From: Bombilactobacillus apium
Lineage (GTDB): Bacteria; Bacillota; Bacilli; Lactobacillales; Lactobacillaceae
Length of the DNA: 64,000 bases
Direction: 5' to 3'
Assembly (NCBI RefSeq): GCF_013385145.1
Contig: NZ_JABZEC010000001.1
Span: 1 to 64,000, forward strand
Shown here: one piece after another, positions 2,916-29,141 of the stretch
Layout of the letters: every line of letters begins with the position of its first letter
Numbering within the stretch: the first letter of the stretch is position 1
Program-made: the position numbers and the translations under genes
Notes under the pieces: model-generated
The model's input: the letters and a program-made list of their open reading frames with translations, nothing else
Databases searched by the model: none
Told to the model about the DNA's origin: nothing

Positions 2916-4868
2916 ATGGATCATAAACAGGCAGCTCAAAGCATTTTGAGTCAAGTTGGAAAGGATAATATTATTGCCGCCGCTCACTGTGCGACACGTT
3001 TACGCTTAGTAATTAGAGATGAGTCCAAAATTAATCAACAAGCTTTAGATAATAATCCAGCGGTGAAGGGGACTTTTCGGGTTAATGGTCAATACCAAAT
3101 TATTATTGGTCCTGGAGATGTTGATAAAGTTTATGCTCATCTAATTGCCATGACGGGTTTAAAAGAAGCAACACCAGATGATTTAAAAGAAATTGCGGCT
3201 GCCGATCAAAAGCCCAATCCGGTCATGGCCTTGGTCAAAGTCTTATCGGATATCTTTATTCCTCTAATCCCGGCTTTAGTAGCTGGGGGGTTATTAATGG
3301 CTTTAAATAACGTTTTAACTTCGAAAGATTTATTTGGACCGCAAGCCTTAGTCACTATGTATCCGGGAATTAAAGGGATTGCGGAGATGGTTAATACTTT
3401 TGCTTCTGCACCTTTTACTTTCTTACCTGTTCTTTTAGGATTTTCTGCTACTCGGCGTTTTGGGGGGAACGCTTACTTAGGTGCCACTATGGGAATGATT
3501 ATGGTGATGCCAGTGCTTGTGAATGGTTATGGGGTCTCCGCGGCTTTAGCCAATGGATCAATGCACTATTGGAATATTTTTGGGTGGCATGTTGCTCAAG
3601 CAGGTTATCAAGGGCAGGTTCTCCCAGTTTTAGCAGTGGCCTTCATTTTGGCGAAAGTTGAAAAGTGGTTGCATAAAAGAATGCCCGCCACCTTGGACTT
3701 TACTTTTACGCCCATGTTAAGCATTATTTTAGTAGCTTTTTTGACCTTTGCCTTTGTCGGTCCAGTTTTGCGGATTGTGGGAAATGGTCTGACTGATGGC
3801 ATTGTCTTCCTGTATGATAAATCTGGTTTTATTGGTTCAACAATTTTTGGTTTAGTTTATTCGCCGGTAGTTATTACCGGTTTACATCAAAGCTTTCCCG
3901 CAATAGAAACCCAATTGTTAGCAAATGTAGCTAAAACTGGCGGTGATTTTTTCTTCCCAATCGCTTCCATGGCTAACGTTGGTCAAGCAGCCGCTTGTTT
4001 AGCAATCTTTTTCTTGAGTCGTGACGCTAAAGAAAAGGGTCTGTCTTCTTCAGCCGGAATTTCAGCTCTTTTAGGAATTACTGAACCAGCTATCTTTGGG
4101 GTTAACTTGAAGAAACGCTTTCCTTTCTTTATGGGGATGTTAGGCAGTGCTGTAGGCTGTTTCTTTGTTGGTCTTTTTGGGGTTCGGTCAACAGCTCTTG
4201 GTTCTGCCGGAGTTATTGGTTTCATTTCGCTTCCGGTCAAATATTATTTTCCTTTCTTTCTAGCTTTATTGGCAAGTATGGTGGTCGCTTTCTTCGGAAC
4301 TTTCCTCTACGGTCATCGAGTTTTAGGACAAGAAGTAGATTCTCCAGCTCAACAGCCGACTAGCAACAAAGTAGTTGATGGAACTATTAGTGCACCAGTA
4401 ACTGGGAAAGTAGAAAGTTTAAAGCAAGTAACTGATCAAGTTTTTGCCAGTGAAATGATGGGTAAGGGAGCAGCCATTATTCCCCAAGAAGAAAAGGTTT
4501 ATGCACCGGTTACGGGAACAATTACGGTGGCTTATCCAACTAAGCATGCTTACGGCCTTTTAGCTGATGACGGAACAGAAGTTTTAATTCATTTGGGAAT
4601 TGATACCGTAAAGCTCAATGGAAAATATTTCACAACGCAAGTTCAGCCAGGTCAACATGTTCAAGTAGGCGAACTTTTGGGAACCTTTGATCTTGCGGCA
4701 ATTAAAAAGGCCGGTTACGATCCAACGGTAATGGTTGTGGTTACAAATACCGATAAGTATGCTAGTGTTGCACGGATTGAAATTCAAAAAATTGAACATG
4801 GTCAGAATTTATTAGCTTTAACTCAAGCCGAGAAAGTTAGTGCAGTAGCAACCGCAGAAGATAATTAG
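2916..4868 (+). CDS. scrA: PTS sucrose transporter EIIBCA
   Basis: A 650-residue membrane phosphotransferase carrier with domains in the order IIB, IIC, IIA. The IIB domain (about 1-80) carries the phosphorylated Cys25 in [10 protein letters not shown]. The IIC domain (about 105-460) holds the membrane helices and the sugar site (GITEPAIFG motif). The IIA domain (about 490-640) carries the active His559 in [10 protein letters not shown]. It takes up sucrose and delivers sucrose-6-phosphate. Sucrose specificity is inferred from the adjacent scrB, scrR and scrK; the glucose-superfamily sequence alone could also fit trehalose or beta-glucosides. GGAGG precedes the ATG. Confidence 0.9.
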
Positions 4869-4893
4869 CTAGGCAAGAAAGGAATTCTAGGAT

Positions 4894-5775
4894 ATGTTAG
4901 TAGGAAGTATTGAAGCTGGGGGAACTAAATTTGTCTGTGCAGTGGGAAATGAACATGGCACGGTTCAAGATCAGATTGTAATTCCCACAACGACACCACA
5001 AGAAACTTTGGAGCAAACTGTTGCTTATTTTCAACGATTTAAATTACAAGCTTTGGGAATCGCTTCCTTTGGTCCTTTAGAAATTGATCCGCAGCAAAAA
5101 AATTATGGATATATTACCAACACTCCGAAATTGGCTTGGCAAAACACCGACTTTGTTGGACCTTTGAAGCAGGCTTTAGCGGTTCCAATTGCATGGACAA
5201 CTGATGTTAATGGATCAGCTTACGGCGAATATCAACAAGCTTTGGCCACGGGAGAACAGTTATCGTCCCTCGTTTATTACACGATTGGAACTGGGGTTGG
5301 CGGTGGAGCCGTTATTAACGGTCAATTATTAGGAAGTGCGGGTCATCCGGAAATGGGGCATGTTTTGGTAAAACGTCACCCTAATGATTTAGATTTTTCG
5401 GGAATTTGTCCCTATCACCATGATTGTTTAGAAGGCTTAGCTTCTGGGCCAACTTTTCTGGCTCGGACAGGAAAACCAGGGACTGAAGTAGCTTTAAATG
5501 ATCCAGTTTGGGAAATTATGTCTTATTATGTAGCCCAAGCTTTACTACAAACAACTTTAATCTTACGTCCTAATCGAATTATCTTAGGTGGTGGAGTAAT
5601 GGGGCTGGAATTCTTACAAAAGATCCGTCAACAATTTAAAAAATTATTGAATGGCTATTTGACTCTGCCAGCTTTGGATGATTATTTACAATTGCCGCAG
5701 GTGGCGGGGAATGGTTCAGCAACCTTGGGTAATTTAATTATGGCAGCACAACAAATTCCTATGACGATTAGTTAA
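4894..5775 (+). CDS. scrK: Fructokinase (ROK family)
   Basis: A 293-residue ROK-family sugar kinase of the LAB/Bacillus fructokinase type. It phosphorylates the fructose released by ScrB to fructose-6-phosphate. The N-terminus EAGGTKFVCAVG is the phosphate-binding loop. IGTGVGGG and the zinc-binding block GHPEMGH...CPYHHDCLEGLASGP (about 150-192) are characteristic. It lies 25 bp after scrA, almost certainly in the same transcript, which ends at the hairpin at about 5849-5890. The locus name is from context; the family assignment is firm. Confidence 0.9.
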   Translation: MLVGSIEAGGTKFVCAVGNEHGTVQDQIVIPTTTPQETLEQTVAYFQRFKLQALGIASFGPLEIDPQQKNYGYITNTPKLAWQNTDFVGPLKQALAVPIAWTTDVNGSAYGEYQQALATGEQLSSLVYYTIGTGVGGGAVINGQLLGSAGHPEMGHVLVKRHPNDLDFSGICPYHHDCLEGLASGPTFLARTGKPGTEVALNDPVWEIMSYYVAQALLQTTLILRPNRIILGGGVMGLEFLQKIRQQFKKLLNGYLTLPALDDYLQLPQVAGNGSATLGNLIMAAQQIPMTIS

Positions 5776-5848
5776 AGTATCTTTAAACTTAGCCGCTAAA
5801 AAACAGGCTGTTTATTGAAAGCAAGTCTGATCGATAATTAGGATAGTT

Positions 5849-7574: not shown

Positions 7575-8870
7575 ATGGCGGCAGCGAGACGTTTAGTGAT
7601 TATTTCCTTGGATGCCCTGGGCTTTCGGGACTTAAATGATCATCAAGCCGAACTTCCAGTCTTGTCGGCTTTAATTTCAGGGGGATCTTGGGTCCAGGCA
7701 GTTACGGGGATTTATCCTACTCTGACTTATCCTTCACACACGACAATTATTACGGGACAATATCCGCGGGAACACGGAATCATTAATAATACCAAGCTAC
7801 AGCCCCAGCGTTTATCACCTGATTGGTATTGGTATCAAAAGGAGATTAAAGTTCCGACCTTGTATGATTTGGCGCATCAGCAGGGGTTAACAACGGCTGC
7901 TTTTTTATGGCCGGTGACTGCTGCTAGTAAGATTAACTACAATATTGCGGAGATTTTTCCCAATCGAATTTGGACAAATCAGGTCTTAGTTTCTTTAAAG
8001 GCTAGTTCGCCATTCTTTTTATGGGAAATGAATCACAAGTATGGACATTTACGGCAAGGAATCCAACAACCTCAGTTAGATGACTTCATCACTGCTTGTG
8101 CAGCAGATACTTTATTACATAAACAGCCTGATTTGGCTTTGATTCATTTAGTAGATTTAGATAGTATGCGTCATCGCTATGGAGTCCGCTCTCCCCAAGC
8201 TCTGGCGGCTTTAAAAAGGCTCGATCAGCGCGTAGGACAATTAATTGCGGCAACTAAGCAGGCCGGAACCTTTGCGACAAATAATTTTGTGATTTTAGGG
8301 GACCATTATCAAATTGATGTCCAAAAGATGATTCATTTGAATACTCTCTTTGCGCAACAAGGTTGGTTAGCAGCCCGTCCAGATCAAAGTATTGCGCCGG
8401 ATTGGCGAGTTTTAGCTAAGACTTGTGATGGCGCAAGTTATATTTATACGCGTAACTTTTCAGATCTAGATCGTTTGCGAGATTTAGTTCAGCAAATAGA
8501 GGGCGTGGAAAGGGTAATTACGCAAACTGCGGCTTCCCAAAGAGGAGCCGATGATCAATGTAGCCTGATGGTTGAAGCGCAAGCGGGATATTATTTTACT
8601 GACCAAAGTCAACGGCCGGAAATTGTTGAAGTGGTTGATCCAGAAAGTTTAGGACAAGCAGATCGTTATCGTGGAGTACATGGTTATGACCCTGATAAAC
8701 CTGATTATCAGACTACTTTACTTTTTAATGGTCCAGATATTAAGACTCAAACTCGCTTGGCTCAGGCGCGGCTAATTGATGAAGCTCCAACTTTTGCCCG
8801 GCTGTTGGAATTGAAATTTCCTAATCCTTTGCCGGGCCGTTGTTTAGATGAAATTTTTAAGGGGAAATAG
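7575..8870 (+). CDS. Type I phosphodiesterase/nucleotide pyrophosphatase-like hydrolase
   Basis: An alkaline-phosphatase-superfamily enzyme, 431 residues from the chosen start. The two-metal site is seen in order: IISLDALG, the nucleophile Thr in LTYPSHTT, LVDLDSMRH, ILGDHYQ and GVHGYD. The family cleaves phosphodiester or pyrophosphate bonds; the substrate here is unknown. No signal peptide is evident, so it probably acts in the cytoplasm. The frame is open from 7527, but a TATAAT box at 7519-7524 puts the transcript start near 7531. AAGGTG lies 9 bases before the ATG at 7575, so I took that one; 7566 is the alternative. The next gene starts on the base after its stop. Confidence 0.8.
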   Translation: MAAARRLVIISLDALGFRDLNDHQAELPVLSALISGGSWVQAVTGIYPTLTYPSHTTIITGQYPREHGIINNTKLQPQRLSPDWYWYQKEIKVPTLYDLAHQQGLTTAAFLWPVTAASKINYNIAEIFPNRIWTNQVLVSLKASSPFFLWEMNHKYGHLRQGIQQPQLDDFITACAADTLLHKQPDLALIHLVDLDSMRHRYGVRSPQALAALKRLDQRVGQLIAATKQAGTFATNNFVILGDHYQIDVQKMIHLNTLFAQQGWLAARPDQSIAPDWRVLAKTCDGASYIYTRNFSDLDRLRDLVQQIEGVERVITQTAASQRGADDQCSLMVEAQAGYYFTDQSQRPEIVEVVDPESLGQADRYRGVHGYDPDKPDYQTTLLFNGPDIKTQTRLAQARLIDEAPTFARLLELKFPNPLPGRCLDEIFKGK

Positions 8871-10106
8871 ATGCGGTTTAATAAGCAACAATGGAGTTGG
8901 ATTTTTAATGATTGGGCTAATTCTGGTTATGGAATTATTGTCACCACCGCTGTTTTACCCCTTTACTTTAAAACAATTGCTCAAGATCAAGGGGTGACTG
9001 CGGTAAATGCGACTGCCTATTGGGGGTACGCTAATAGTTTGGGTACTCTTTTAATCGCAATAATAGCTCCTTTTTTAGGAGCGATAGCCGACTATCCGGG
9101 AACCAAAAAACATCTTTTGAATTTTTTCTCGCTAATCGGTATTGGAGCAACTTTAGCTTTAAGTTTGGCTCCAGCCCAAGATTGGTGGGAATTATTAGTT
9201 GTTTATATTATTTCAATTATTGGATATTCGGGTAGTAATTTGTTTTATGATAGCTTTCTCCCCGATGTTGCAGTTAATCAAGAGATGGATCGTGTTTCTG
9301 CTGCTGGTTACGGTTTTGGTTATTTGGGCGGAGTTTTGTCTTTCCTGATTTTCCTTACAGCTTTATTAATTCCTGGAGAGAGCGGATTAAATAACTCCGT
9401 GACAGCTCGGGGAAGTTTTATCTTAGCGGCAATTTGGTGGCTGATTTTTTACTTACCGTTTTATAAATGGGGCCAGCAAAAATATGCTTTAACGGCTGTT
9501 AAACATCCTTTTCGTTCCAGCTTGCGGCGAGTATGGATGACTGTTAAGCAAGTTGGTAACTATCGAACGATCGTTTGGTTTTTAATTGCCTACTTTTTTT
9601 ATATCGATGGTGTGGATACTATTTTTACGATGGCGACTTCTATTGGGATGGATTTAGGAATTTCGATGACTACCTTAATGTTGGTCTTGTTGGCCGTCCA
9701 GGTTGTGGCCTTCCCTTTCTCCTTAGTCTATGGTTGGTTAGCCCAATATTGGTCGACGCGAAAGGCGATTTTACTGGGAATTGTGATTTATTTGGGAATT
9801 TGTTTATATATCTTAAGACTGCGCACGGCAACTGATTTTTGGATTTTGGCTTTGTTGGTCGGGACTAGTCAGGGAGGAATTCAGGCTTTGAGTCGTTCCT
9901 ACTTTGCGCAAATTATTCCCAAAGATAATGGCAGTGAATTTTTCGGTTTCTATAATATTTTAGGCAAGTTCTCCGCAATTATGGGACCGATCTTAGTAGG
10001 AACAATTACCCAAATAACGGGACATTCTACGGTGGGGGCTGCATCTTTAAGTGTCCTATTTCTGATCGGTTTAGTGATCTTTTGCTTCTTGCCATCTTTG
10101 AAGTAA
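8871..10106 (+). CDS. MFS transporter, UMF1 (Atg22-like) family
   Basis: A 411-residue integral membrane protein with about 12 helices. The N-terminus FNDWANSGYGIIV...LPLYFK, the segment GAIADYPGTKK and the helix containing YSGSNLFYDSFLPDVA are marks of the UMF1 family of MFS proteins (the family of yeast vacuolar effluxer Atg22). Family members are thought to export amino acids or related small solutes; the substrate here is unknown. Its ATG directly follows the TAG of the phosphodiesterase gene, with AAGGGGA as the ribosome site. The two are translated together and may act on related molecules. A terminator follows. Confidence 0.82.
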   Translation: MRFNKQQWSWIFNDWANSGYGIIVTTAVLPLYFKTIAQDQGVTAVNATAYWGYANSLGTLLIAIIAPFLGAIADYPGTKKHLLNFFSLIGIGATLALSLAPAQDWWELLVVYIISIIGYSGSNLFYDSFLPDVAVNQEMDRVSAAGYGFGYLGGVLSFLIFLTALLIPGESGLNNSVTARGSFILAAIWWLIFYLPFYKWGQQKYALTAVKHPFRSSLRRVWMTVKQVGNYRTIVWFLIAYFFYIDGVDTIFTMATSIGMDLGISMTTLMLVLLAVQVVAFPFSLVYGWLAQYWSTRKAILLGIVIYLGICLYILRLRTATDFWILALLVGTSQGGIQALSRSYFAQIIPKDNGSEFFGFYNILGKFSAIMGPILVGTITQITGHSTVGAASLSVLFLIGLVIFCFLPSLK

Positions 10107-10135
10107 GAGTAAAAGATTTTAAAAATCCAAAAGTA

Positions 10136-10181
10136 AAAAGAGACCCCTGAAAAATTTGGATTTTTCAGGGGTCTCTTTTTT
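10136..10181 (+). terminator. Terminator after the MFS gene
   Basis: A stem of about 20 bp, AAAAGAGACCCCTGAAAAAT against ATTTTTCAGGGGTCTCTTTT, with loop TTGG runs into T residues. It also fits the convergent minus-strand dehydrogenase gene. Confidence 0.93.
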
Positions 10182-10194
10182 GTCCTTAAATGAT

Positions 10195-11193
10195 TTAGTC
10201 AGCTTGAACTAAGTTCGGGCAAGTACCCGTTGTTAAAACTTGGTGGAAGTTATCGTAACTAATTTGAATCATATCAGTTAAAGCTTCTTCGGTGTAAGAA
10301 CCAATATGTGGCGTGATGAGAACTCGAGGATATAAAGCCAAGAGGCGTTTAAGAGTTGGATCAGGAATTGTAGCTACTTCTTTGCCCAAATATTGTTTTT
10401 CGTTGTCTAAAACATCAGTCGCAAAGCCACCTAGATGTCCGTTTTCAAGAGCTGTGGCGACGGCCGAAGTATCAACGATTTCTGCCCGAGCGGTATTGAT
10501 CAAGATAGCTCCAGGTTTCATTTTCTGGACTAGCTCTTGATTGACGAAGCGGTCATTTTTTCCCGGGAAATAAGGGACGTGCAGCGAAACAATATCCGCT
10601 GTCTGGAAAAGTTGATCTTGGTCGACAAATTCAACTATTTTTTGAGCTTGGGGAGATTGAAAAACATCGTAACCTAAAACTCGAGCTCCTAAAGCCCGAT
10701 AGTTCTGCGCTTCTGTAACTCCAATCCGTCCAGTACCGACAATTCCGACCGTTAAGTCGTGAATCTCACGACTAAATTCTTCAGTCAAAACTTGAAAGTT
10801 TTGTTGGTGACTATTAAAGGCGGCCAAACTTAGGTGCCGTTGTAAAGTTAGGCCTAAGCTGAAAGCAAGATCTGCAACAGCATGAGGGGAATAGCTCGGA
10901 ACTCGGGCCACAATTTGTCCATTAGCTTGGGCGGCTTCTAAGTCAATGTGATTGAAACCCACAGTTCGCGTGAAAATATATTTAATACCCCAATCTTTGA
11001 GCTGAGCCAGATTTTTGGCATTCGCGGTACAGTTAGCTCTTAATAAAACCGCATCCATCCCTTGAGCTGTCGCCAGATTTTCTGTAGTTAGCAGCTCAGG
11101 GATTAATTTCAATTGATAGTGATATTGGTTTAATTTTTGAAAATATTCAACTTCGTTTTCACGTACGCCATAGGCGGCTATTTTAAAATTCAT
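10195..11193 (-). CDS. D-2-hydroxyacid dehydrogenase (D-lactate dehydrogenase type)
   Basis: A 332-residue NAD-dependent enzyme that reduces a 2-keto acid to the D-2-hydroxy acid. The Rossmann fingerprint GIVGTGRIG lies at about 149-157. The catalytic Arg is in NTARAEIVD, the Glu in DVLDNEKQY and the His in TPHIGSYTEEA. FTRTVGFNHIDLEAA is typical of the D-LDH/hydroxyisocaproate branch. The His motif has Gly-Ser where D-LDH usually has an aromatic residue, so the substrate may be a branched or other keto acid rather than pyruvate. It lies 24 bp after the AEC carrier gene on the same strand, so transport of the acid is a reasonable guess. GAGGA precedes the ATG. Confidence 0.85.
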   Translation of the reverse strand: MNFKIAAYGVRENEVEYFQKLNQYHYQLKLIPELLTTENLATAQGMDAVLLRANCTANAKNLAQLKDWGIKYIFTRTVGFNHIDLEAAQANGQIVARVPSYSPHAVADLAFSLGLTLQRHLSLAAFNSHQQNFQVLTEEFSREIHDLTVGIVGTGRIGVTEAQNYRALGARVLGYDVFQSPQAQKIVEFVDQDQLFQTADIVSLHVPYFPGKNDRFVNQELVQKMKPGAILINTARAEIVDTSAVATALENGHLGGFATDVLDNEKQYLGKEVATIPDPTLKRLLALYPRVLITPHIGSYTEEALTDMIQISYDNFHQVLTTGTCPNLVQAD

Positions 11194-15803: not shown

Positions 15804-17933
15804 CTATTTATTATTACTACTTCCGGGAATTTCATAAATCGGATCAGAATTTGTTAATAATTCGGGAGCAGTTGTCTTATATAAATCGGTTGAAGATTTA
15901 TTATTATTGCGTGAATACAGACTAGTCGAGTTTTTACCCAATTGATCGCGAATTTTGAGAAGCTTTTGAAATTGGTTTTGGTAATTGTAATCAGCAGGGT
16001 TAACTGGTCGAAACTCTGGAGGAGTATAGAAGCGGAGCAAATTAGTTTTATTGATTTTATCGGAGAGATCTAGTTGTTGATTTTTTACGCGCGCAATCCG
16101 GTTAATTTTTTGTTTTATTTGCGCTGTGGGCTGATCAATGAGAGTTCCGGTACTATTTTGATAAATATTAAAATGACCATTACTATTTAAGACCGTGTAC
16201 TGTGGGGTGATAAAGGAGCGATTGCGAAAGACGACATTTTGGTCATGGCTAGGAGATAAGAGATCAGTTCCCATGTAAATGTAAGGTTTGGTATCAATTC
16301 CTACGAGATGCATTAACGTCGGCAAGACATCAATTTCACCCCCATATTGTTTTTGAATGCCGCCTTTTAACTTCGGCATGTGAATCATGAAGGGGACACG
16401 TTGTAAACTTGTATGGTTGAAGGCAGTCCAATTATTAGGATCTTGGCCTAGCAAAGGAGCAAGATCCTTCTCGTCACCTTCGTTAAGTCCAAAGTGATCA
16501 CCGTATAAAATGACGACTGAATTATCGTAGAGGCCAGAGTCTTTGAGATAATTAAAGAATTCATGGACAGCTTCGTCTAAATAATGAGCTGTAGCAAAGT
16601 AGTTATTAACCATGTTGTTGGGAGTGTCCGGCTTTTGAAAATCACCGACATCACTAGCCGATAATTCATAAGGATTGTGGTTGGTGACCGTCAAAAATTT
16701 GGTATAGAAAGGTTGTTGTAATTGCTCTAAATACTTAATACTTTCCGCAAATAATAATTTATCTTTACTTCCCCAATAGGTATTACTGTCCGGTGTTTGT
16801 TGGTAAGCTTTTTGATCGAAGAAGTAGTTGTAACCCATATTTTTGTAAACCGTATCCCGACTCCAAAAAGAACCAATATTACCGTGAAAAACCGCGCTCG
16901 TATAAGCTTGTTTTTGTGCTAAAATAGCTGGTGCTGCTTGAAAAGTATTGTTTGAACCTAAACTCGTGAAAAAAGAGCCTTCTGGTAAGCCAAACAAACT
17001 AGTTTCGAGCATCGTTTCGGCATCACTAGTTTTACCTTGGCCGACTTCATGAAAAAAGTTTTCAAAAGCTAAGGTATTATTATCATGATAGAGGCTATTA
17101 AGAAAAGGTGTCACCTCTTGATTTTTGATTTTGCTACCGATTAAGAATTGTTGAAAGCTTTCGAGATGAATGATGATAATATTTTTACCTTGAGCTTTGC
17201 CAAAGTATTTAGGATTAGGAGCGGCATAGTGTTTTTGAACAAAATTTAAAACAGGATCCATATTTGTTCCTTGTGCACTAGAACGCAAAGTATTACTTTG
17301 GGCAGTTTTGAAACTATCGTAGGCTAAAAAGTTATTTAAACCAAGATACTTGACGATATAGGTGCGGTCAAAGGTTCGAACTAATAGTTGAGGTCGGTTA
17401 AGTTCGGCTAAGAATAAGTTGGCGGTCATCCCTAAGCAGGCTAAACTAGTGATGATTGCTGCTTGGAGAAGAGAACGGGACCGCGTGTCAGCTTTAATTT
17501 GTTTACTGAGTGCTAAAATGATAATGAAAATCAGATCTATTCCATAGAGAAAGTCATGGGGTTGAGCCATGGCAATCGCACTGCTACCCAAGCCCTTGGA
17601 AACTTTACTAACATTGATAATTGTATTCATACTAATAAAGTCATTGAACTCGCGATAGTATAAAACATTACTGTAGAGAAGTAAGCTTTCAATAAGGTAT
17701 AAACCAGCGGCTAGCCAATAGGTTAGACGGGGATTTTTAAAATATAAAGCCAAGCTTAATAAAAATAAAGTTGAAAAAACTGGATTTAAAATTAGTAAAA
17801 AATGTTGCATAGGGTCGGCGGCACCCATATTAAAATCACAATAATAAGCGATAACGGTTTTAATCCAAATCAGCAGCACTAAGAAGCTGATCCAGCCTAA
17901 TCGTTGGGCCAGAAAATTTCTAAACTTACACAT
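15804..17933 (-). CDS. ltaS: Lipoteichoic acid synthase-type sulfatase
   Basis: A 709-residue membrane enzyme that polymerises glycerol-phosphate from phosphatidylglycerol onto the lipoteichoic acid anchor. Five N-terminal membrane helices (about 10-185) are followed by an extracellular alkaline-phosphatase-like domain. The metal site is visible: Glu in IIHLESFQ, the nucleophile Thr302 in GQGKTSDAE, and Asp-His in LYGDHFG. The C-terminal tail of about 80 residues is polar and Ser/Asn-rich. LTA primases share this architecture, so synthase against primase is not certain. It is a single gene, divergent from the VanZ-like gene. Confidence 0.88.
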   Translation of the reverse strand: MCKFRNFLAQRLGWISFLVLLIWIKTVIAYYCDFNMGAADPMQHFLLILNPVFSTLFLLSLALYFKNPRLTYWLAAGLYLIESLLLYSNVLYYREFNDFISMNTIINVSKVSKGLGSSAIAMAQPHDFLYGIDLIFIIILALSKQIKADTRSRSLLQAAIITSLACLGMTANLFLAELNRPQLLVRTFDRTYIVKYLGLNNFLAYDSFKTAQSNTLRSSAQGTNMDPVLNFVQKHYAAPNPKYFGKAQGKNIIIIHLESFQQFLIGSKIKNQEVTPFLNSLYHDNNTLAFENFFHEVGQGKTSDAETMLETSLFGLPEGSFFTSLGSNNTFQAAPAILAQKQAYTSAVFHGNIGSFWSRDTVYKNMGYNYFFDQKAYQQTPDSNTYWGSKDKLLFAESIKYLEQLQQPFYTKFLTVTNHNPYELSASDVGDFQKPDTPNNMVNNYFATAHYLDEAVHEFFNYLKDSGLYDNSVVILYGDHFGLNEGDEKDLAPLLGQDPNNWTAFNHTSLQRVPFMIHMPKLKGGIQKQYGGEIDVLPTLMHLVGIDTKPYIYMGTDLLSPSHDQNVVFRNRSFITPQYTVLNSNGHFNIYQNSTGTLIDQPTAQIKQKINRIARVKNQQLDLSDKINKTNLLRFYTPPEFRPVNPADYNYQNQFQKLLKIRDQLGKNSTSLYSRNNNKSSTDLYKTTAPELLTNSDPIYEIPGSSNNK

Positions 17934-20180: not shown

Positions 20181-21113
20181 TTATTTTTTTTCTTTAATAA
20201 TATAAAGGGGACGATGTTTAACTTCCATGAAGATCTTTCCAATATAGTTTCCGATAACTCCTAGAAAGAAAAGTTGTAAGCCGCCTAAGAAGAGAATTAA
20301 AGAGATTGTTGAAGCCCAACCCTTGGTTGGATTGCCTACAAAAATAGTTTGGAAAAAGATGAAGATCAGAGAAACGAAGGCAATGGCCATGACAATTAAG
20401 CCTAACCAGCCGGCGATAATCAAGGGAACGGTTGAGAAGTCGGTAATCCCCTCCAGGGAATATTTAAACAAACTCCAGAAGCTCCAACTTGAACTACCCG
20501 CAACTCGCTCAACATTTTGGTAGGGAAGGTATTTGGTCTTAAAACCAACCCAAGAAAAAATTCCTTTGGAGAAACGATTATATTCGCTCATTTCTAAAAT
20601 AGCATCGACCATGCCGCGCCGCATCAAGCGAAAGTCTCGAGCTCCAGGAACAATCTTGGTTTGGGAAATTTGATTAATGATTCGATAAAAAAGATTGGAA
20701 AAAAAGGAACGAACGGGCGGCTCACCACTGCGATCAGAGCGCATCGTGCCGATACAATCGTAATCAGTAGTTTCTAAAAGATTAATCATTTCGATGAGCA
20801 TCGCCGGTGGATCTTGGAGATCAGCATCCATAATCGTTACTAATTCTCCATCGACATTTTTTAGTCCAGCATAGACCCCAGCTTCTTTCCCAAATTGGCG
20901 GGAAAATGATAAGTAGTGGCTTTCAATAGTCGGATCCGCTTGTAATTCACGTAGTTTGTTTAAAGTATTGTCTGTTGAGCCGTCGTTAATAAACAAAATA
21001 TCCGGTTGATAATTAGGTAATTTCTGAAAAGTTTCCGCAATAGCCTGATAAAACAGGGGAGCTGATTCTTCCTCATTGAAACAGGGTACAATAATACTGA
21101 TTTTTGTTGTCAT
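20181..21113 (-). CDS. Polyprenyl-phosphate glycosyltransferase (GtrB/CsbB-like, GT2)
   Basis: A 310-residue GT2 enzyme with a GT-A catalytic domain (1-220) and two C-terminal helices (about 225-250 and 265-290). IIVPCFNEEES, the nucleotide-sugar motif DADLQDPP and RDFRLMRR are characteristic of DPM1-like enzymes. These load a sugar onto undecaprenyl phosphate for transfer outside the cell. Bacillus relatives supply sugars for LTA or wall polymer glycosylation. The LTA synthase gene 2.2 kb away makes that role plausible here, but no YfhO-like transferase is in the window. GAGGTT precedes the ATG. Confidence 0.85.
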   Translation of the reverse strand: MTTKISIIVPCFNEEESAPLFYQAIAETFQKLPNYQPDILFINDGSTDNTLNKLRELQADPTIESHYLSFSRQFGKEAGVYAGLKNVDGELVTIMDADLQDPPAMLIEMINLLETTDYDCIGTMRSDRSGEPPVRSFFSNLFYRIINQISQTKIVPGARDFRLMRRGMVDAILEMSEYNRFSKGIFSWVGFKTKYLPYQNVERVAGSSSWSFWSLFKYSLEGITDFSTVPLIIAGWLGLIVMAIAFVSLIFIFFQTIFVGNPTKGWASTISLILFLGGLQLFFLGVIGNYIGKIFMEVKHRPLYIIKEKK

Positions 21114-21405: not shown

Positions 21406-22860
21406 ATGGCAAGTTTTAAAGAACGTATTTTCCGAAAAGAAGACCCTAGCGTTTATGAGCAAAAGGATGCTCATTTGTCTCGAACCTTGCGGGTGCGGGA
21501 CTTTTTGGCTTTGGGTTTGGGGACTATTGTGTCTACGGCTATTTTCACTTTGCCCGGAACAGTAGCAGCGCAACATGCAGGCCCAGCGGTGGTAATTTCT
21601 TTCTTAGCCGCAGCCTTGGTTGCTGGTTTAGTAGCTTTTGCTTATGCTGAAATGGCTTCTGCAATGCCGTTTGCTGGTTCAGCTTATTCTTGGATTAATG
21701 TTATCTTTGGAGAATTTTTTGGTTGGATTGCTGGCTGGGCTTTATTGGCGGAGTATTTCATTGCGGTAGCCTTTGTTGGTTCGGGTTTATCCGCTAATTT
21801 TCGCGGCTTAATTGCTCCTCTAGGTTTAGTGTTACCTAAATCATTAGCTAATGCTTACGGAACTGATGGCGGAGTGATTGATTTAGTTTCCGTGGTGGTA
21901 ATTATCGCTGTAGCTTATCTTTTATCTCGTGGAGCTAGTGAAGCTAGTCGAGTTGAAAATATTTTAGTTATCGCTAAAGTTTTGGTCGTTTTGCTGTTTA
22001 TTGTCGTTGGTTGTACAGCAATTAAACCACAAAATTATGTACCGTTTATCCCTAAGTATCATTTGAATCCCGATGGAACAGCCTTTGGTGGTTGGCAGGG
22101 AATTTATGCCGGTGTTTCGATGATTTTCTTATCTTATATCGGTTTTGATTCAATTGCCGCTAATTCTGCGGAAGCTAAAGATCCTGGGAAGACCATGCCG
22201 CGAGGAATTTTAGGTTCCTTAATTATTGCTGTAGTTCTATTTGTTGGCGTAGCCCTAGTTTTAGTCGGAATGTTCCATTACACACTTTATGCTAACAATG
22301 CTGAACCAGTAGGTTGGGCTTTACGGAAAAGTGGTCATGGAGTAATCGCTGCTGTTATTCAATCAGTTGCTTGTATCGGGATGTTTACGGCGCTAATTGG
22401 AATGATGATGGCTGGTTCTCGTTTAATCTATTCCTTTGGGCGAGACGGTTTACTTCCGCGTTGGTTAGGTAAGATTAATAATAAGCATTTACCAAATAAT
22501 GCTTTATTGGCTTTAACGATTGTCGCTGTTTTAATTGGTTCGGTCTTCCCGTTTAGTTTCTTAAACCAATTAATTTCTGCCGGAACTTTAATTGCCTTTA
22601 TGTTCGTTTCCCTAGGAATTTATGCTTTAAGAAAGCGTGAAGGAAAAGATATCATTGATCCAGAATTTAAGATGCCTTTTTATCCAGTAATGCCTTTCTT
22701 AGCCTTTGCCGGTGCTTTAATCGTCTTCCTAGGCTTAAGTACTGACGCCAAAATTTATGCGGCTGCTTGGTTTATCTTTGGTTTAATTATTTACTTCTGT
22801 TATGGAATGAGAAATTCTGCTTTAGGCCGAGAGAAAGAAGAAGGAAAAGATGTTGGATAA
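21406..22860 (+). CDS. APC-superfamily amino-acid permease
   Basis: A 484-residue transporter with about 12 helices of the cationic-amino-acid-transporter-like branch. Features are the N-terminal L-R-x-F-x-x-L-G-L-G-x-I-V-x-x-A-I-F motif, FAYAEMASAMPFAGSAYSW in helix 3 and IGFDSIAANSAEAKDPGKTMPRGI in helix 6-7. The stop codon lies inside the next gene (11-bp overlap), which encodes an isoleucine 2-epimerase-like enzyme. The permease therefore probably handles branched-chain or other neutral amino acids or their D-forms, rather than lysine or arginine. The substrate is inference. Confidence 0.85.
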   Translation: MASFKERIFRKEDPSVYEQKDAHLSRTLRVRDFLALGLGTIVSTAIFTLPGTVAAQHAGPAVVISFLAAALVAGLVAFAYAEMASAMPFAGSAYSWINVIFGEFFGWIAGWALLAEYFIAVAFVGSGLSANFRGLIAPLGLVLPKSLANAYGTDGGVIDLVSVVVIIAVAYLLSRGASEASRVENILVIAKVLVVLLFIVVGCTAIKPQNYVPFIPKYHLNPDGTAFGGWQGIYAGVSMIFLSYIGFDSIAANSAEAKDPGKTMPRGILGSLIIAVVLFVGVALVLVGMFHYTLYANNAEPVGWALRKSGHGVIAAVIQSVACIGMFTALIGMMMAGSRLIYSFGRDGLLPRWLGKINNKHLPNNALLALTIVAVLIGSVFPFSFLNQLISAGTLIAFMFVSLGIYALRKREGKDIIDPEFKMPFYPVMPFLAFAGALIVFLGLSTDAKIYAAAWFIFGLIIYFCYGMRNSALGREKEEGKDVG

Positions 22861-24190
22861 TAATCAAAAATTGCTGGCTGAAGAAGGTGAAGTTTTATCA
22901 CCTGCGGTCCGGATTAAATATTTTGATATTGTTATTCAGAAAGCCCGAGGGGCAGTTCTGACTGATGCTACTGGCCGGGAATATCTTGATTTGTTGGCTA
23001 GTGCGTCAGCAACTAATGTTGGTCATTGTCATCCGCACGTTGTGGAAGCAATTCAAAAGCAAGCGGCTAATTTAATTCAATATACACCGGCTTATTTTGC
23101 CAGTACACCGGAAATTAAATTGGCACAACGACTAGCTGAACTAGCTCCAATCAGTGGTCCGGTTAAGGTTTCTTGGGGAAATTCGGGTTCTGATGCTAAT
23201 GATGCAATCATTAAATTTGCTCGGGCTTATACTAAACGGCAATACATTGTTAGTTTTACTGGGGCTTATCACGGCTCCACCTACGGTTCGATGTCCTTGT
23301 CAGCAGTTAGTTTAAATATGAGTCGCAAAATGGCACCTTTGCTTCCTGGAGTGGTAAAAGTTCCTTATCCTGATGTACATCAACGCCAGCCCCAAGAAAG
23401 TGAAAATGAATTTGTTGAGCGGATGATTGCCGCCTTCAAGTTGCCATTTGAGACTTATTTACCAGCTGAAGAAGTGGCGGCAATTGTTGTTGAGCCAATT
23501 CAAGGTGACGGAGGAATTGTGAAAGCGCCGCAGGCTTATTTAGATTTTGTCTGGAAGTTTGCGCACGAACATGGAATTTTGGTTGCAATTGATGAAGTCA
23601 ACCAAGGAATGGGTCGAACCGGTAAATGGTGGTCAATCGAAAACTTCGGCTTGGAACCTGATTTGATGACCATTGGGAAGTCAATCGCTTCTGGTCTACC
23701 TTTGAGCGTAATTTTAGGGCGGGCAGAAGTAATGGATGCTTTGGATTCACCGGGAAATACTTACACGACAGCCGGAAATCCAGTCACAACGGCCGCAGCA
23801 AATGCCACTTTGGACGTTATGGAAGCAGAAGACCTTCCCGCTCGTTCGGCGCAGCTAGGATCGAAAGTGCAAGCCTATTTTGAAAAGAAACGTGAACAGT
23901 ATGATTTTATTGGTGATATTCGTTTTTACGGCTTGAATGGTGGGATTGATATTATCGATCCCCAAACTAAAGAAGGCGATGAAGAAGCGACGACGAAGTT
24001 GATTTATCGTTTATTCCAATTAGGAGTAATTATTATCAGTTTGCGCGGCTATATTCTCCGTTTCCAGCCACCACTAGTAATTACAGAAGACCAATTGAAA
24101 GAAGCTTTCCAAGCCTTTGATCAGGCTTTGTCCGAATTAGCAGCGGGTAGATTAAGCTTGCCTGAAGATGCAGCGGAAATTGGTTGGTAA
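22850..24190 (+). CDS. Isoleucine 2-epimerase-like PLP enzyme (class III aminotransferase fold)
   Basis: A 446-residue class III aminotransferase-fold protein with the PLP Lys277 in TIGKSIASG and Asp in AIDEVNQGMGRTGK. Long stretches agree with the Lactobacillus buchneri isoleucine 2-epimerase as I remember it (LLASASA.NVGH, GNSGSDANDAIIKFARAYT.RQYIVS, EPIQGDGGI.KAP, LRFQPPLVI, and the C-terminal IGW). That enzyme racemises isoleucine, valine and leucine at C2, giving D-allo-isoleucine. GABA aminotransferase is the usual automatic label but fits less well. It overlaps the permease gene by 11 bp. Confidence 0.82.
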   Translation: MLDNNQKLLAEEGEVLSPAVRIKYFDIVIQKARGAVLTDATGREYLDLLASASATNVGHCHPHVVEAIQKQAANLIQYTPAYFASTPEIKLAQRLAELAPISGPVKVSWGNSGSDANDAIIKFARAYTKRQYIVSFTGAYHGSTYGSMSLSAVSLNMSRKMAPLLPGVVKVPYPDVHQRQPQESENEFVERMIAAFKLPFETYLPAEEVAAIVVEPIQGDGGIVKAPQAYLDFVWKFAHEHGILVAIDEVNQGMGRTGKWWSIENFGLEPDLMTIGKSIASGLPLSVILGRAEVMDALDSPGNTYTTAGNPVTTAAANATLDVMEAEDLPARSAQLGSKVQAYFEKKREQYDFIGDIRFYGLNGGIDIIDPQTKEGDEEATTKLIYRLFQLGVIIISLRGYILRFQPPLVITEDQLKEAFQAFDQALSELAAGRLSLPEDAAEIGW

Positions 24191-24207
24191 ACGATTAAAG
24201 TCGAAAT

Positions 24208-24248
24208 AAAAAGGGCTAGTTTGAATTTTTTTCAAATTAGCCCTTTTT
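24208..24248. terminator. Bidirectional terminator
   Basis: AAAAAGGGCTAGTTTGAA (24208-24225) pairs with TTCAAATTAGCCCTTTTT. T runs on both strands serve the epimerase and dapF transcripts. Confidence 0.92.
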
Positions 24249-24253
24249 AGATT

Positions 24254-25234
24254 TTAGGAAAGTTGCTGGACGAAGTTTTGATAGGCCAGAGCTTCACCAG
24301 TCTCGTTATAAGCGTAGTTCTCCGGCTGGAGATTTCCATGCCTTAAATCGGCTTCTGGAAGCTGAATTTCAGCGATTACAGTGGCATTACCGCTCAGTTC
24401 AATCCAATACTGCTCAGATGAACCCTGATGAACTCTAGTTTGGACCATTCCACCGGGGTTTTTAATCGTTAACTGTGTACCCATGGCTGGAACTTGGGGC
24501 TGGGTGAGGAAGTAGGCTAGACTAGTTGCGGACATCCCCGTGCCACAAGCATTGGTGAAACCAACTCCGCGCTCAAAAGTTCGAACAAAGAGTTCGTCTG
24601 CTTTTTTAACTTGAGCAAAGCTAAGATTGACTCCTTCGGGAAAATACGGATTAGTTTGATTTAACTTTTCGCCAAGTTCTTTTAAGAGAGGACCCTCCAT
24701 GACAGCAGCACTGACAAAACTAATCAGGTGGGGGTTGGGAACAGCGAGAGCGGTGAATTTTAATTGAGGATCAAATTGGGGCACGATTTGGTTGATTAGT
24801 TGGTCAGTTCCCAAGTTAGCAAAAGGTAATTTATTAGCTTGAAAACTGACGGGAGAAATTTCTACGCTATAAGCGGGAATTTGTGGCGCCCAAGGAGTCT
24901 GTTTTTGGACTTGCAGATTGGCTTGATCAGTTTCAACCAGAAATTGATCTTGCTGATGTTTAGTCGCTAAATAGCGACTTACGGTTCGTAAACCATTGCC
25001 GCACATTAAAGCGCGAGAACCATCAGCATTATAAACTCGCATTTTTCCTAAGGCAGCAGGAACGCTACTAGAATCAACGACTAAAAGACCGTCGACTCCA
25101 CCAAAAAAATCCTTTTTGGTAATTTTTTGGGCCAAATTTTGCAATTCTTGGGAATTCAAAGCTTGGGTCAAAGTGGTTTGATCGAGAAGAAAAAATTGAT
25201 TATTAGAACCGTGAACTTTTTGTAAGACGACCAT
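24254..25234 (-). CDS. dapF: Diaminopimelate epimerase
   Basis: A 326-residue cytoplasmic enzyme that turns LL- into meso-diaminopimelate, the precursor of lysine and of the peptidoglycan cross-link. The two catalytic cysteines are present, Cys78 in MCGNGLR and Cys230 in NACGTG. It is longer than many DapF proteins (about 275-285 residues) because of inserted loops at about 110-150. AGGAGG precedes the ATG. It lies 29 bp after lysC in a minus-strand unit divergent from the lysA operon. Confidence 0.95.
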   Translation of the reverse strand: MVVLQKVHGSNNQFFLLDQTTLTQALNSQELQNLAQKITKKDFFGGVDGLLVVDSSSVPAALGKMRVYNADGSRALMCGNGLRTVSRYLATKHQQDQFLVETDQANLQVQKQTPWAPQIPAYSVEISPVSFQANKLPFANLGTDQLINQIVPQFDPQLKFTALAVPNPHLISFVSAAVMEGPLLKELGEKLNQTNPYFPEGVNLSFAQVKKADELFVRTFERGVGFTNACGTGMSATSLAYFLTQPQVPAMGTQLTIKNPGGMVQTRVHQGSSEQYWIELSGNATVIAEIQLPEADLRHGNLQPENYAYNETGEALAYQNFVQQLS

Positions 25235-25263
25235 AAAATACCTCCTGAAAAGATGAACTTTAT

Positions 25264-26616
25264 TTAATGGAAAAATTTTTGATAAATTTTTTGGACCGCT
25301 TGTGGAGCTTGATCTTGTTTCATCCCCAGCATAATTGAAATTCGGGAGGCACCCTGATTAATCATATGAATTTTAATCTGGGCTTTGGCGAGAGGATTAA
25401 CGATATCTTGAATGACATCCAGTTGGTGGGGCATCCCTTCGCCTACAACCATCAAAATAGCGTAATCATCGATCCACTCTAATTTGTCTGGTTGCAAGAC
25501 GGCTTGAATTCTAGCTAAGAGTCGCTTTTTCTTCAAATCATCGAATTGACGTTTATTAAAAATAACTGTTAAGTCGTCGATTCCTGAAGGCATGTGTTCA
25601 TAAGAAATTTGAAAGTCATAGAAAATTTGTAATAATTTAAGGGTAAAACCAACTTCTTTGTTTAAAAGATAGCGGTGTAAGTATAGTGCGGCAAAATGAG
25701 TTGAACCAGCGACTCCTGTGACGGGACCTTGCGGTTGGAAGTTGGTTTCTGGAACAATGAGTGTTCCCGGAAGTTGGGGATGGTTAGTATTTTTGACGTT
25801 AATCGGAATTTGACCTTCAATTGCCGGCAGGAGCGCTTCGTCGTGAAAAACAGAAAATCCCGCATAGGAAAGTTCTCTTAATTCCCGGTAAGTCATAGTC
25901 TTAATGGCCTGCGGTTGGGGAACAATTTGGGGATCAACGGCATAAATAGCATCGACATCGGTGAAATTTTCGTACATTTGGGCTTGTAGTCCGCGGGCTA
26001 AAAGGGCACCGGTAATATCTGAACCTCCCCGAGAAAAAGTAGCAATTTGTTGTTGAGGGGTCAGACCATAAAATCCGGGGATGACTAAGACTTGCTCGGG
26101 TAATTTTTGTTGATGCAATTTATTGTAAGTTTCCGGAAGAATTGTGGCATCATCGGGTTGGTCACTGACGACAATTCCCGCCTCTTGTGGATCCCAGAAG
26201 CTGGCGGCAAGCTGTTTTTTTTGAAGAACCAAGGTAAGTAAACGAGCACTGAGGTATTCACCATGAGCCTTAAAAACGGCCATTAAATAATTAGCGTCAG
26301 GATATTCTTGCTGGGGTAAGTCCAAGAGAACTTGGTGTAAGGGAGCAAGTTGGGCAGCCTGCAGGTCAAAATAGTCAGCAATGGTCTGATAACGGTCCCA
26401 AATCTGGGCTACAATGTCTTGAATTGGTTGATTTTGCAGAGTCTTTTGCGCATATTGAATTAAAAGATCGGTTACTTTGATATCATGAGAATTTCTTTTT
26501 CCGGGTGCAGAAGTAACGATAACTTTACGTTGCGGATCGGCTTGGACAATTTGAACAACTTTTAAGAATTGGGGACCGTCGGCCAAGGAACTTCCCCCGA
26601 ATTTAACTACTTTCAT
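25264..26616 (-). CDS. lysC: Aspartate kinase
   Basis: The first enzyme of the aspartate pathway, phosphorylating aspartate. With the start at 26616 it has 450 residues, the size of class III aspartokinases. KFGGSSLADG is the N-terminal kinase motif and TFSRGGSDITGALLARGL the substrate region. The C-terminal third carries two ACT domains, so feedback by lysine is likely. A TTG reading adds six residues but has no ribosome site; the site for the ATG at 26616 is also weak (CAGG). It is followed by dapF. Confidence 0.93.
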   Translation of the reverse strand: MKVVKFGGSSLADGPQFLKVVQIVQADPQRKVIVTSAPGKRNSHDIKVTDLLIQYAQKTLQNQPIQDIVAQIWDRYQTIADYFDLQAAQLAPLHQVLLDLPQQEYPDANYLMAVFKAHGEYLSARLLTLVLQKKQLAASFWDPQEAGIVVSDQPDDATILPETYNKLHQQKLPEQVLVIPGFYGLTPQQQIATFSRGGSDITGALLARGLQAQMYENFTDVDAIYAVDPQIVPQPQAIKTMTYRELRELSYAGFSVFHDEALLPAIEGQIPINVKNTNHPQLPGTLIVPETNFQPQGPVTGVAGSTHFAALYLHRYLLNKEVGFTLKLLQIFYDFQISYEHMPSGIDDLTVIFNKRQFDDLKKKRLLARIQAVLQPDKLEWIDDYAILMVVGEGMPHQLDVIQDIVNPLAKAQIKIHMINQGASRISIMLGMKQDQAPQAVQKIYQKFFH

Positions 26617-26677
26617 AATAACCTGACTTTCCAATCAAAGATTAAAATTAAAAAAATTAGTCGTGCAATTAAAAAGA

Positions 26678-26706
26678 ATTTTAAACACTTTAATAACTTT
26701 CTGCAA
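26678..26706 (-). promoter_or_regulatory. Promoter of lysC-dapF
   Basis: On the minus strand TTGCAG (26706-26701), a 17-base spacer and TAAAAT (26683-26678) lie about 60 bp upstream of the lysC start. I see no lysine riboswitch motif in this short leader. Confidence 0.6.
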
Positions 26707-26780
26707 CCGTTAAAGTTAGAAAAAATCTCAGAATAATTTTTTATTTCTACTAAGGGGCCCTAATAAAAAATTAAGATAGC

Positions 26781-26809
26781 TTGACAAGTGCGCTAATTCA
26801 TTATAAGAT
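26781..26809 (+). promoter_or_regulatory. Promoter of the lysA-dap operon
   Basis: TTGACA at 26781-26786 is followed by TATAAG after 15 bases (26802-26807), or by TAAGAT after 17 (26804-26809). Transcription from either would start just before the riboswitch aptamer. Confidence 0.6.
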
Positions 26810-26814
26810 TCATA

Positions 26815-27068
26815 GTAATCGAAGAGGTCGCAACCGCCATGAGTAACTAGTGGAGTTTCTGGATTAACGAAGAAGCTAGTGAAAGGGAAAGTTGCCGAAG
26901 CTGACACCAATACCAGGGGTGTTGGGCTGGGACATAATTGAATAAATTATGGACTGTCGTAGACTAAAATAGTTTGCGGAGCGCTATCGACAGATGAAAA
27001 CCAAATGATTTTTTAATTGATTTTTTGGAGGATTCTTTTGTGAAACGCTCACAGAAGAATCCTTTTTT
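26815..27068 (+). promoter_or_regulatory. Lysine riboswitch (L box) with intrinsic terminator
   Basis: The aptamer shows the conserved L-box blocks in order: GAAGAGGTCGCAACC (26821-26835), AGTGAAAGGGAAAGTTGCCGA (26878 on, ending GAAGCTGA), GTTGGGCTGGGACA and GGACTGTC (26951-26958). The expression platform ends in a hairpin, GGATTCTTTTGTGA (27030-27043) against TCACAGAAGAATCC (27049-27062), followed by six T residues. Bound lysine should stabilise the aptamer and favour the terminator, lowering expression of lysA, the dap genes and asd. The outer boundaries are approximate; the identification is firm. Confidence 0.93.
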
Positions 27069-27107
27069 CGTAAAGTTTTTTAATTAAGTAAGAGGACGGT
27101 GAAACAA

Positions 27108-28421
27108 ATGACAACTGAATCAGTTGTAGAATCCGTAAATACTGCTGGTCACTTAATGATTGGTGGATGTGATGCCTTGGATTTAGTTCAAGAATTTCAG
27201 ACCCCCCTAGTGGTTTACGATATTGAGCAAGTTCGTCAGCAAGTCCGCGCTTTTCGCCAGGCCTTTGAAGAGCAGCAAGTTAATTACGTCGTTAGCTATG
27301 CTAGTAAAGCTTTTGCAACTCAAGCTATTTATCAGGTTATGAACCAAGAAAAAGCTCATATTGATGTGGTTTCAGGAGGAGAATTATATACAGCAATCCA
27401 AGCCGGTTTTCCCATGGCCCATGTTAGTTTTCACGGAAATAATAAATCTCGTTCGGAATTAGAATTAGCGGTTCAAGAACAAGTTGGCGTAATTATTCTT
27501 GATAACTTCGATGAATTGGACTTATTAAGTTCAATTTTGGAGCGGACTGAGCAAAAAATCGCCGTCATGTTACGGATCACGCCGGATATTACCGCTCATA
27601 CCCATGAATATATTCAAACCGGTCAAGCCGATAGTAAATTTGGCTTTGATCTTCCTAGCGGTCAAGCTGAAGCAGCCTTAAAACAAATTTTAGAAAATCC
27701 TCACTTAGACTTCCGCGGAATTCATGCTCATATTGGTTCGCAAATTTTGGCGGTTACGGGTTTTGAATTATTGGCGCATAAGTTGGTTGAGCTAGCTGCT
27801 CAATGGCAGCAAAAGTTTCAATGTCCAATTCCGGTATTGAATTTCGGTGGAGGATTCGGCATTCGCTATACGGCAGAGGATCACCCTTTAGCGCCGGCAA
27901 AATTCATTAGCGCCTTGGTCCAAACCGTTAAAACGGATTGTCAACAACAACAATTACCACTTCCAGAAATTTGGATTGAACCCGGACGCTCATTAGTTGG
28001 TCCGGCAGGGTATAATTTATATACGGTTGGTTCCAGCAAACGAGTTCCGGGATTGAAACCCTACGTTACAGTAGATGGAGGAATGGGAGACAATATTCGA
28101 CCGGCCCTCTATCAAGCCGAATATACAGCAGTTTTGGCTGCTAATCCCCAAGCACCAGCAGAAGAAACCATTCGTTTAGCGGGGCGCTATTGTGAGTCAG
28201 GAGATATTTTAATTTCCGAATTAGAGTTTCCCCGGGTTCACCAAGGTCAGATTGTTGCTCTCTTAGCAACGGGAGCTTACGGGTATGCAATGGCTTCTAA
28301 TTACAATCGTGTTCCTCGACCAGCGGTGGTTTTTGCGGAACAGGGAAAAGCGCAAGTCGTTGTAGAAAGAGAAAGTTATGCCGATCTGAATCGCTTAGAC
28401 CGGGCTTATCAAAACAAGTGA
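27108..28421 (+). CDS. lysA: Diaminopimelate decarboxylase
   Basis: The last step of lysine synthesis, decarboxylating meso-diaminopimelate to lysine with PLP. From the ATG at 27108 it has 437 residues. The PLP Lys67 is in VVSYASKAFA, the His of HIGSQI and the GGGFGI loop bind the phosphate, and EPGRSLVG and CESGDIL complete the active site. A GTG at 27099 is an alternative start three codons upstream; AGAGGA fits the ATG better. It is the first gene after the lysine riboswitch, with dapH 9 bp downstream. Confidence 0.95.
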   Translation: MTTESVVESVNTAGHLMIGGCDALDLVQEFQTPLVVYDIEQVRQQVRAFRQAFEEQQVNYVVSYASKAFATQAIYQVMNQEKAHIDVVSGGELYTAIQAGFPMAHVSFHGNNKSRSELELAVQEQVGVIILDNFDELDLLSSILERTEQKIAVMLRITPDITAHTHEYIQTGQADSKFGFDLPSGQAEAALKQILENPHLDFRGIHAHIGSQILAVTGFELLAHKLVELAAQWQQKFQCPIPVLNFGGGFGIRYTAEDHPLAPAKFISALVQTVKTDCQQQQLPLPEIWIEPGRSLVGPAGYNLYTVGSSKRVPGLKPYVTVDGGMGDNIRPALYQAEYTAVLAANPQAPAEETIRLAGRYCESGDILISELEFPRVHQGQIVALLATGAYGYAMASNYNRVPRPAVVFAEQGKAQVVVERESYADLNRLDRAYQNK

Positions 28422-28430
28422 GGTTAAGGA

Positions 28431-29141
28431 ATGAAATTTCAAAGTGCACAAGAGATAATTGATTATATTGGCAATGCTCCTAAAAAAACTCCGGTAAAAA
28501 TTTACCTCCACGGTCAGGTTCAAGTAATTTCTTGGCCAGAAACAGTTCAGACTTTCTTGAATCCTGACTGGGGAATTGTGATGGGGGACTGGGCGGAGAT
28601 TAAACCTGTCTTAGCTGCTAATGCTGACCAAATTACTGATTACCAAGTTGAAAATGAAGCTCGTAATTCTGCGGTTCCTTTGTTAGATTTGAAAGAAGTT
28701 TCAGCGCGAATTGAACCCGGAGCTTTGATTCGTGATCAGGTCAAAATTGGGGCCAATGCGGTGGTCATGATGGGAGCGGTAATTAATATTGGAGCCGAGA
28801 TTGGCCCTAATTCGATGATAGATATGGGAGCCGTTTTGGGTGGTCGAGCAATTGTTGGTGCCGATAGCCATGTTGGAGCTAATGCAGTTTTAGCTGGGGT
28901 AATTGAACCTGCTTCAGCTCAACCAGTTCGGATTGGTGATCATGTTTTAATCGGGGCCAATGCGGTAGTTTTAGAAGGAGTTCAGGTTGGTTCTGGAGCG
29001 GTAATCGCTGCGGGCGCGGTTGTGACGGAAGATGTTCCTGAAAAAACAGTTGTTGCCGGAATTCCTGCCCGGGTTATTAAAGCCGTTGATGGTCAGACCA
29101 CTTCGAAAACCGGCCTAGAAGCTGATTTACGGAAGTTGTAG
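28431..29141 (+). CDS. dapH: Tetrahydrodipicolinate N-acetyltransferase
   Basis: A 236-residue enzyme that acetylates tetrahydrodipicolinate from acetyl-CoA, the step that defines the acetyl branch of the diaminopimelate pathway. The N-terminal domain (1-85, with [13 protein letters not shown]) is that of Bacillus DapH/YkuQ. Residues 90-215 are hexapeptide repeats of a left-handed beta-helix ([20 protein letters not shown] and similar). The usual succinyl-type DapD is longer and lacks this N-terminus. It is co-transcribed with its neighbours. Confidence 0.95.

Follow-up and report, generated by a model that had tools for sequence, protein, structure and literature searches.

What does a bacterium gain from a permease gene that runs into the gene of a PLP-dependent enzyme? 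We examined such a pair in the first 64,000 nucleotides of contig NZ_JABZEC010000001.1 (the window) of the Bombilactobacillus apium assembly GCF_013385145.1. A preliminary description had read the pair as a D-branched-chain amino-acid module that either makes and exports or imports and racemises its substrates. Both genes lie on the plus strand as open reading frames. The first (21406–22860) codes for a 484-residue protein of the APC family that we predict to be a CAT-type, LfAAP-like importer of branched-chain amino acids (BCAA), and the second (22850–24190) codes for a 446-residue putative isoleucine 2-epimerase (ILEP), a PLP-dependent BCAA racemase. The ATG of the second gene at 22850 precedes the stop codon of the first (22858–22860) in a different reading frame, and direct reading of the plus strand bears out the 11-bp overlap (22850–22860) that had been described. 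Purine-rich stretches that resemble ribosome sites can be read before both starts (GAGGGAG before 21406 and AAGAAGG before 22850). Permease and epimerase would share one transcript, and the overlap may couple their synthesis.

The surroundings help to delimit this unit. Upstream of the permease, a family-2 glycosyltransferase gene (20181–21113) occupies the minus strand, opposite to the pair. A single TTGACA-17-GAAAAT site ends 67 bases 5′ of the permease start, in a promoter scan that did not rise above shuffled sequence (5 promoter-like sites versus 6.3 expected), and we claim no promoter. No Rfam family exceeded its gathering score between positions 20000 and 25500, so that no RNA regulation element was found for the operon by this search. 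Downstream, the epimerase gene meets the diaminopimelate epimerase gene dapF (24254–25234, minus strand) tail to tail, followed by an aspartate kinase gene on the minus strand (25264–26634); both products score above their NCBIfam cut-offs. 3′ of the pair, where the epimerase gene and dapF converge, the intervening DNA can form a hairpin (24207–24249) with 19 pairs and runs of A and of T. The segment 24191–24253 folds at −27.3 kcal/mol (z = −8.06), and none of 200 shuffled sequences was equally stable. This hairpin, absent from the output of a consensus scan, is probably a two-way transcription terminator. The lysine/DAP stretch (24254–29141) also contains LysA and DapD genes on the plus strand, again above NCBIfam cut-offs. 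We considered these lysine/DAP genes as part of the module and rejected them, as the first two stand tail to tail with the pair and the hairpin lies in between.

The product of the second gene matches PF00202, the class-III aminotransferase fold, and is the only match to this family in the host genome. On this ground it could be a GABA aminotransferase (GABA-AT) or another omega-aminotransferase, as such proteins are often labelled in databases. Most homologues in Table 1 of PMC6053490 carry GABA-AT labels, and the NCBIfam model that exceeds its cut-off (NF006368, 706 bits) is likewise an aminotransferase by name, though by no more than the name "aspartate aminotransferase family protein". The structures speak otherwise. 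The best solved relatives are those of the Lentilactobacillus buchneri isoleucine 2-epimerase (5wya, 4ysn and 5ll2), with 555 bits over residues 2–446, whereas chains named only class-III aminotransferase score 259–262 bits and chains named GABA aminotransferase 261 bits (7vno, "hypothetical"), 240 bits (6wj8) or less. In pairwise comparison, E. coli GabT is 33% identical to the window enzyme, the L. otakiensis epimerase (L080) 55%, and the epimerases of L. reuteri and L. vaginalis 67% each. Its residues Lys277 and Asp220, invariant in all 84 aligned copies, align with Lys280 and Asp222 of the L. buchneri enzyme. The positions of GabT Glu211 and Arg141, the latter of which we take to bind the carboxylate of GABA, are held by Asp220 and Ser143, and the NCBIfam model for GABA aminotransferase (GABAtrnsam) scores 334 bits, below its cut-off of 507. 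PMC6053490, with reference to Hayashi 2017, names Lys280 and Asp222 as catalytic in L. buchneri ILEP and reports that this enzyme showed no GABA-AT activity. A function as omega-aminotransferase is therefore extremely improbable. The earlier view that the enzyme stands nearer to isoleucine 2-epimerase than to GABA-AT holds: on the sequence side, its closest characterised relatives are isoleucine 2-epimerases and not any of the transaminases found.

The same structural comparison raises the possibility of a racemase that acts chiefly on other amino acids, such as Met or Ala/Ser, together with a matching importer. The next solved matches are indeed two related class-III racemases of broad or Ala/Ser specificity (9wrf and 9wqz), and LfAAP, the permease of the homologous pair in Limosilactobacillus fermentum, also carries Met (PMC11907396). 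These two racemases reach 305 bits, however, against 555 bits for ILEP; amino acid amide and caprolactam racemases reach 264–271 bits, and the NCBIfam model for leucine/methionine racemase gives 382 bits, under its cut-off of 800. We consider such a specificity very unlikely. With full-length alignment and the catalytic Lys and Asp shared with the ILEP of L. buchneri and L. otakiensis (EC 5.1.1.21), a solved relative at about 55% identity settles its fold, and the product of 22850–24190 is, as judged by its alignments, an isoleucine 2-epimerase.

The window enzyme differs from L. otakiensis ILEP not only by this level of identity but also by its position in the family tree, where it and the ten rows of the group around L. 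otakiensis and L. plantarum lie on opposite sides of a well-supported branch (support 100). Its own side of the tree holds the copies of L. reuteri, L. vaginalis and Leuconostoc pseudomesenteroides, three species described as producers of D-BCAA with activity in extracts (PMC6053490). The same source remarks on ILEP homologues in the 53–60% identity range, and it found neither D-BCAA nor activity for the homologues of O. oeni (86% identical to L. buchneri ILEP) and L. plantarum (71%), in which the catalytic residues are conserved. Since these two proteins showed no activity despite higher identity, sequence does not guarantee activity. In contrast to the L. fermentum pair, the window copy is known from sequence; in the comparison, the epimerases of L. 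vaginalis and L. reuteri stood in for that of L. fermentum, and we expect the window enzyme to act as the tested homologues do.

We then turn to the permease, on which the direction of transport depends. It matches PF13520 (185 bits), and its nearest solved structure is GkApcT, a CAT-type transporter from Geobacillus (5oqt, 295 bits). The best NCBIfam model is the BcaP transporter (NF053761), yet its 412 bits fall short of NCBI's cut-off of 690 and do not assign the protein to BcaP. The AAP–ILEP operon of L. fermentum (LAF_1620–LAF_1619) offers a described counterpart: its permease also adjoins the epimerase, both proteins belong to the same families as those of the window, and LfAAP has the same length (484 residues) and the same five substrate-contact residues (PMC11907396). 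To locate these residues we carried the LfAAP numbering over by way of sequence context and GkApcT M321, which aligns with M333 of the window permease, instead of the LfAAP sequence itself. By this route S43, A120, V124, L242 and M333 are the counterparts of S42, A119, V123, L240 and M331 in LfAAP. The Ser, Val, Leu and Met are conserved in all 72 aligned permease copies, and the Ala in 70 of them. LfAAP has been placed in the CAT-type group of which GkApcT is a member (PMC11907396). GkApcT shares the Met at the substrate site with the window protein but differs in substrate range, for which PMC11907396 gives small L-amino acids plus D-Ala. Adjacency to ILEP and the five contact residues both mark the window permease as a predicted LfAAP-type importer. 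Seven further permease matches occur in the host genome; one reaches 44% identity, and none of the other six exceeds 28%.

The window pair is thus a further member of an operon kind already described in L. fermentum (PMC11907396), in agreement with the proposed D-branched-chain amino-acid module, and by its sequence it is very probably an AAP–ILEP operon that provides an importer and an epimerase of BCAA. In the published work on LfAAP–LfILEP, which used E. coli and L. lactis as test hosts, the epimerase was found to work in both directions, and LfAAP was characterised as a proton-coupled, non-stereospecific importer of D- and L-BCAA and Met (PMC11907396). Besides transport and epimerisation, homologues have also been shown to support growth on D-BCAA. 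Alternatively, the pair could be a make-and-export module, with D-BCAA sent out by the permease to affect walls or competitors. PMC6053490 tested 12 lactic acid bacteria that carry ILEP homologues, and the D-BCAA which seven of them accumulate in the medium would agree with such a role. In the E. coli test, by contrast, no export signal was obtained for LfAAP (PMC11907396): its co-expression did not raise external D-BCAA and about doubled internal D-BCAA, and CCCP abolished the uptake of D-Val. Of the two directions offered in the preliminary description, import is supported by these observations and export is not, and we regard the make-and-export module as quite unlikely. A different protein, AzlC, is a known type of BCAA exporter, present in genome G000 and in 239 of the 301 family genomes. 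Because it occurs in only three of the six epimerase-bearing genomes of the same genus, AzlC is not an obligate partner either, and we ruled it out as the required export partner of the pair. The exporter of D-BCAA was left open by the authors of the L. fermentum study (PMC11907396).

As an importer–epimerase operon, the pair would work as follows. The permease would take up valine, leucine and (allo-)isoleucine of either handedness together with protons. In a host unable to make BCAA, the epimerase would convert imported L-BCAA to D-BCAA, which would exit the cell by some route and could later be re-imported and re-converted. For L. fermentum it has been proposed that BCAA are stored in a form that others cannot readily use, with special advantage to auxotrophs (PMC11907396), and BCAA storage or scavenging may be the benefit of the window pair as well. 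In L. lactis, LfAAP brought no clear growth benefit, and cells with the pair grew more slowly than cells with ILEP alone (PMC11907396). The window host, with a genome of 1.71 Mb that is 99.89% complete, contains no match to ketol-acid reductoisomerase (ilvC) or to the ilvD/EDD family, each of which was matched in 14 of 14 control genomes, and no match to BrnQ (4 of 14 control genomes matched). These missing matches agree with BCAA auxotrophy and a dependence on import or scavenging, and L. fermentum is likewise described as lacking ilvC (PMC11907396). The recently characterised D-BCAA importer–epimerase operon is extended to a bee-gut genus, and the likely direction of transport is corrected to import.

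How constant is this association among relatives? We kept 80 named relatives out of 140 confirmed ones, and found the permease upstream of the epimerase in 62 and downstream in 8. Since the two genes adjoin in most of these relatives (70/80), their pairing is not a matter of chance. The other ten contain no full-length permease of at least 50% identity in the fetched flank; one of these (L078) has a left flank of only 153 bp, and in another (L060, Limosilactobacillus equigenerosi, 4494–5812) the permease beside the epimerase is in two pieces in different frames and looks broken or mis-assembled. Overlap is a minority feature: we counted it in 15 of 56 measured upstream pairs, with start codons only estimated, after dropping 6 of the 62 for which the search for a stop codon ran on and the distance was unusable. 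Most pairs do not overlap.

Within the family, 180 of 301 genomes matched the epimerase at an E-value of 0.001 or better, weak matches included. The epimerase is present in six of the seven Bombilactobacillus genomes, and a close permease stands beside it only in the window and in G078. The stretches fetched with the epimerase from the other four (L017, L019, L122 and L123) contain no permease of at least 50% identity; three of them have an APC permease of 41–42% identity some 3.6 to 8 kb from the epimerase. G078 has the order of all ten compared genes in common with the window, from dapD to the gene at 15804–17933, and so the lysine/DAP gene order next to the pair is kept.

The best named matches to the epimerase come from outside this phylum, namely from four Bifidobacterium genomes (82–87% identity). 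The genus of G304 (B. commune) was searched in 112 genomes; eight of them carry an epimerase of 82–87% identity (L002–L005 and L138–L141), and 15 others match at an E-value of 1e-60 or better with identities of only 29–37%. In all eight carriers the epimerase is adjoined by a permease of 84–87% identity. Seven of these loci have a gene for a ribonucleotide reductase small chain next to the permease (the L140 stretch gave no match), and on the epimerase side all eight have a GH32 gene, at a varying distance and cut by the stretch end in three. At the four loci tested, the GC content of the cassette is within 0.03 of that of its flanks, which indicates that the transfer is not recent.

Window and Bifidobacterium copies group together in the trees of both genes. 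With the four named genomes, the support (SH-aLRT) is 99 in the 84-row epimerase tree and 95 in the 72-row permease tree. In trees with all eight copies and a chosen 21 (epimerase) or 17 (permease) other rows, window included, the window and the eight form one clade (bootstrap/SH-aLRT 100/99 for the epimerase and 96/94 for the permease). In the permease tree, the eight form a clade of their own (99/99) with the window as sister and G078 next outside (100/99), which places the Bifidobacterium permeases inside Bombilactobacillus; a pairing of window and G078 alone is not rejected in the 72-row tree (p-AU 0.143). The epimerase tree gives no direction, because the order of window and Bifidobacterium copies is not settled there (the eight alone: p-AU 0.408). 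A topology that keeps the six Bombilactobacillus epimerases as one group and leaves Bifidobacterium out of it is rejected (p-AU 0.006), a result that mixes the placement of Bifidobacterium with the effects of G078 and G105, which fall apart from the other Bombilactobacillus copies. Reverse transfer from Bifidobacterium into the window lineage is conceivable for the epimerase alone, as its trees do not order the two; the permease tree and the gene order common with G078 speak against it. We favour transfer into Bifidobacterium, where the cassette is rare (8/112), over the opposite direction, given its wide occurrence in Lactobacillaceae and the gene order common with G078. The cassette was probably passed from a Bombilactobacillus relative to Bifidobacterium, and long ago. 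The fuller scenario, that the whole importer–epimerase cassette crossed phyla from a Bombilactobacillus-like donor to Bifidobacterium of social bees, we put forward tentatively, as a doubtful one. The ESL strains are presumably of bee origin. B. commune is named among strains from honey bee and bumblebee guts (PMC10128065). The titles and abstract openings of the literature searched, and passages of PMC10128065, contained no report of a transfer of this cassette to Bifidobacterium.

All eight Bifidobacterium carriers have ilvC, which is absent from all seven Bombilactobacillus genomes. Auxotrophy alone therefore does not explain why the pair is kept. Cassettes that are 82–87% identical in protein, in one genus without and one with ilvC, constitute a natural test of the purpose of D-BCAA, and cultures and co-cultures with and without the cassette would show whether these compounds are a private store or act as signals or on walls. 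As a system the operon is ordinary; its evolutionary extension to Bifidobacterium is modestly interesting.

The G078 locus shows uneven divergence from the window. Its pgi, glycosyltransferase and permease genes are 80–86% identical to those of the window. The range is 55–75% for the epimerase together with two genes farther to the left, and 57–76% for the lysine/DAP genes (window 24254–29141). Within the pair itself (L121, about 8232–11017), the permease is 86% but the epimerase 73% identical, and the G078 epimerase branches with that of G105, away from the window copy, possibly because the epimerase alone was replaced or changed fast.
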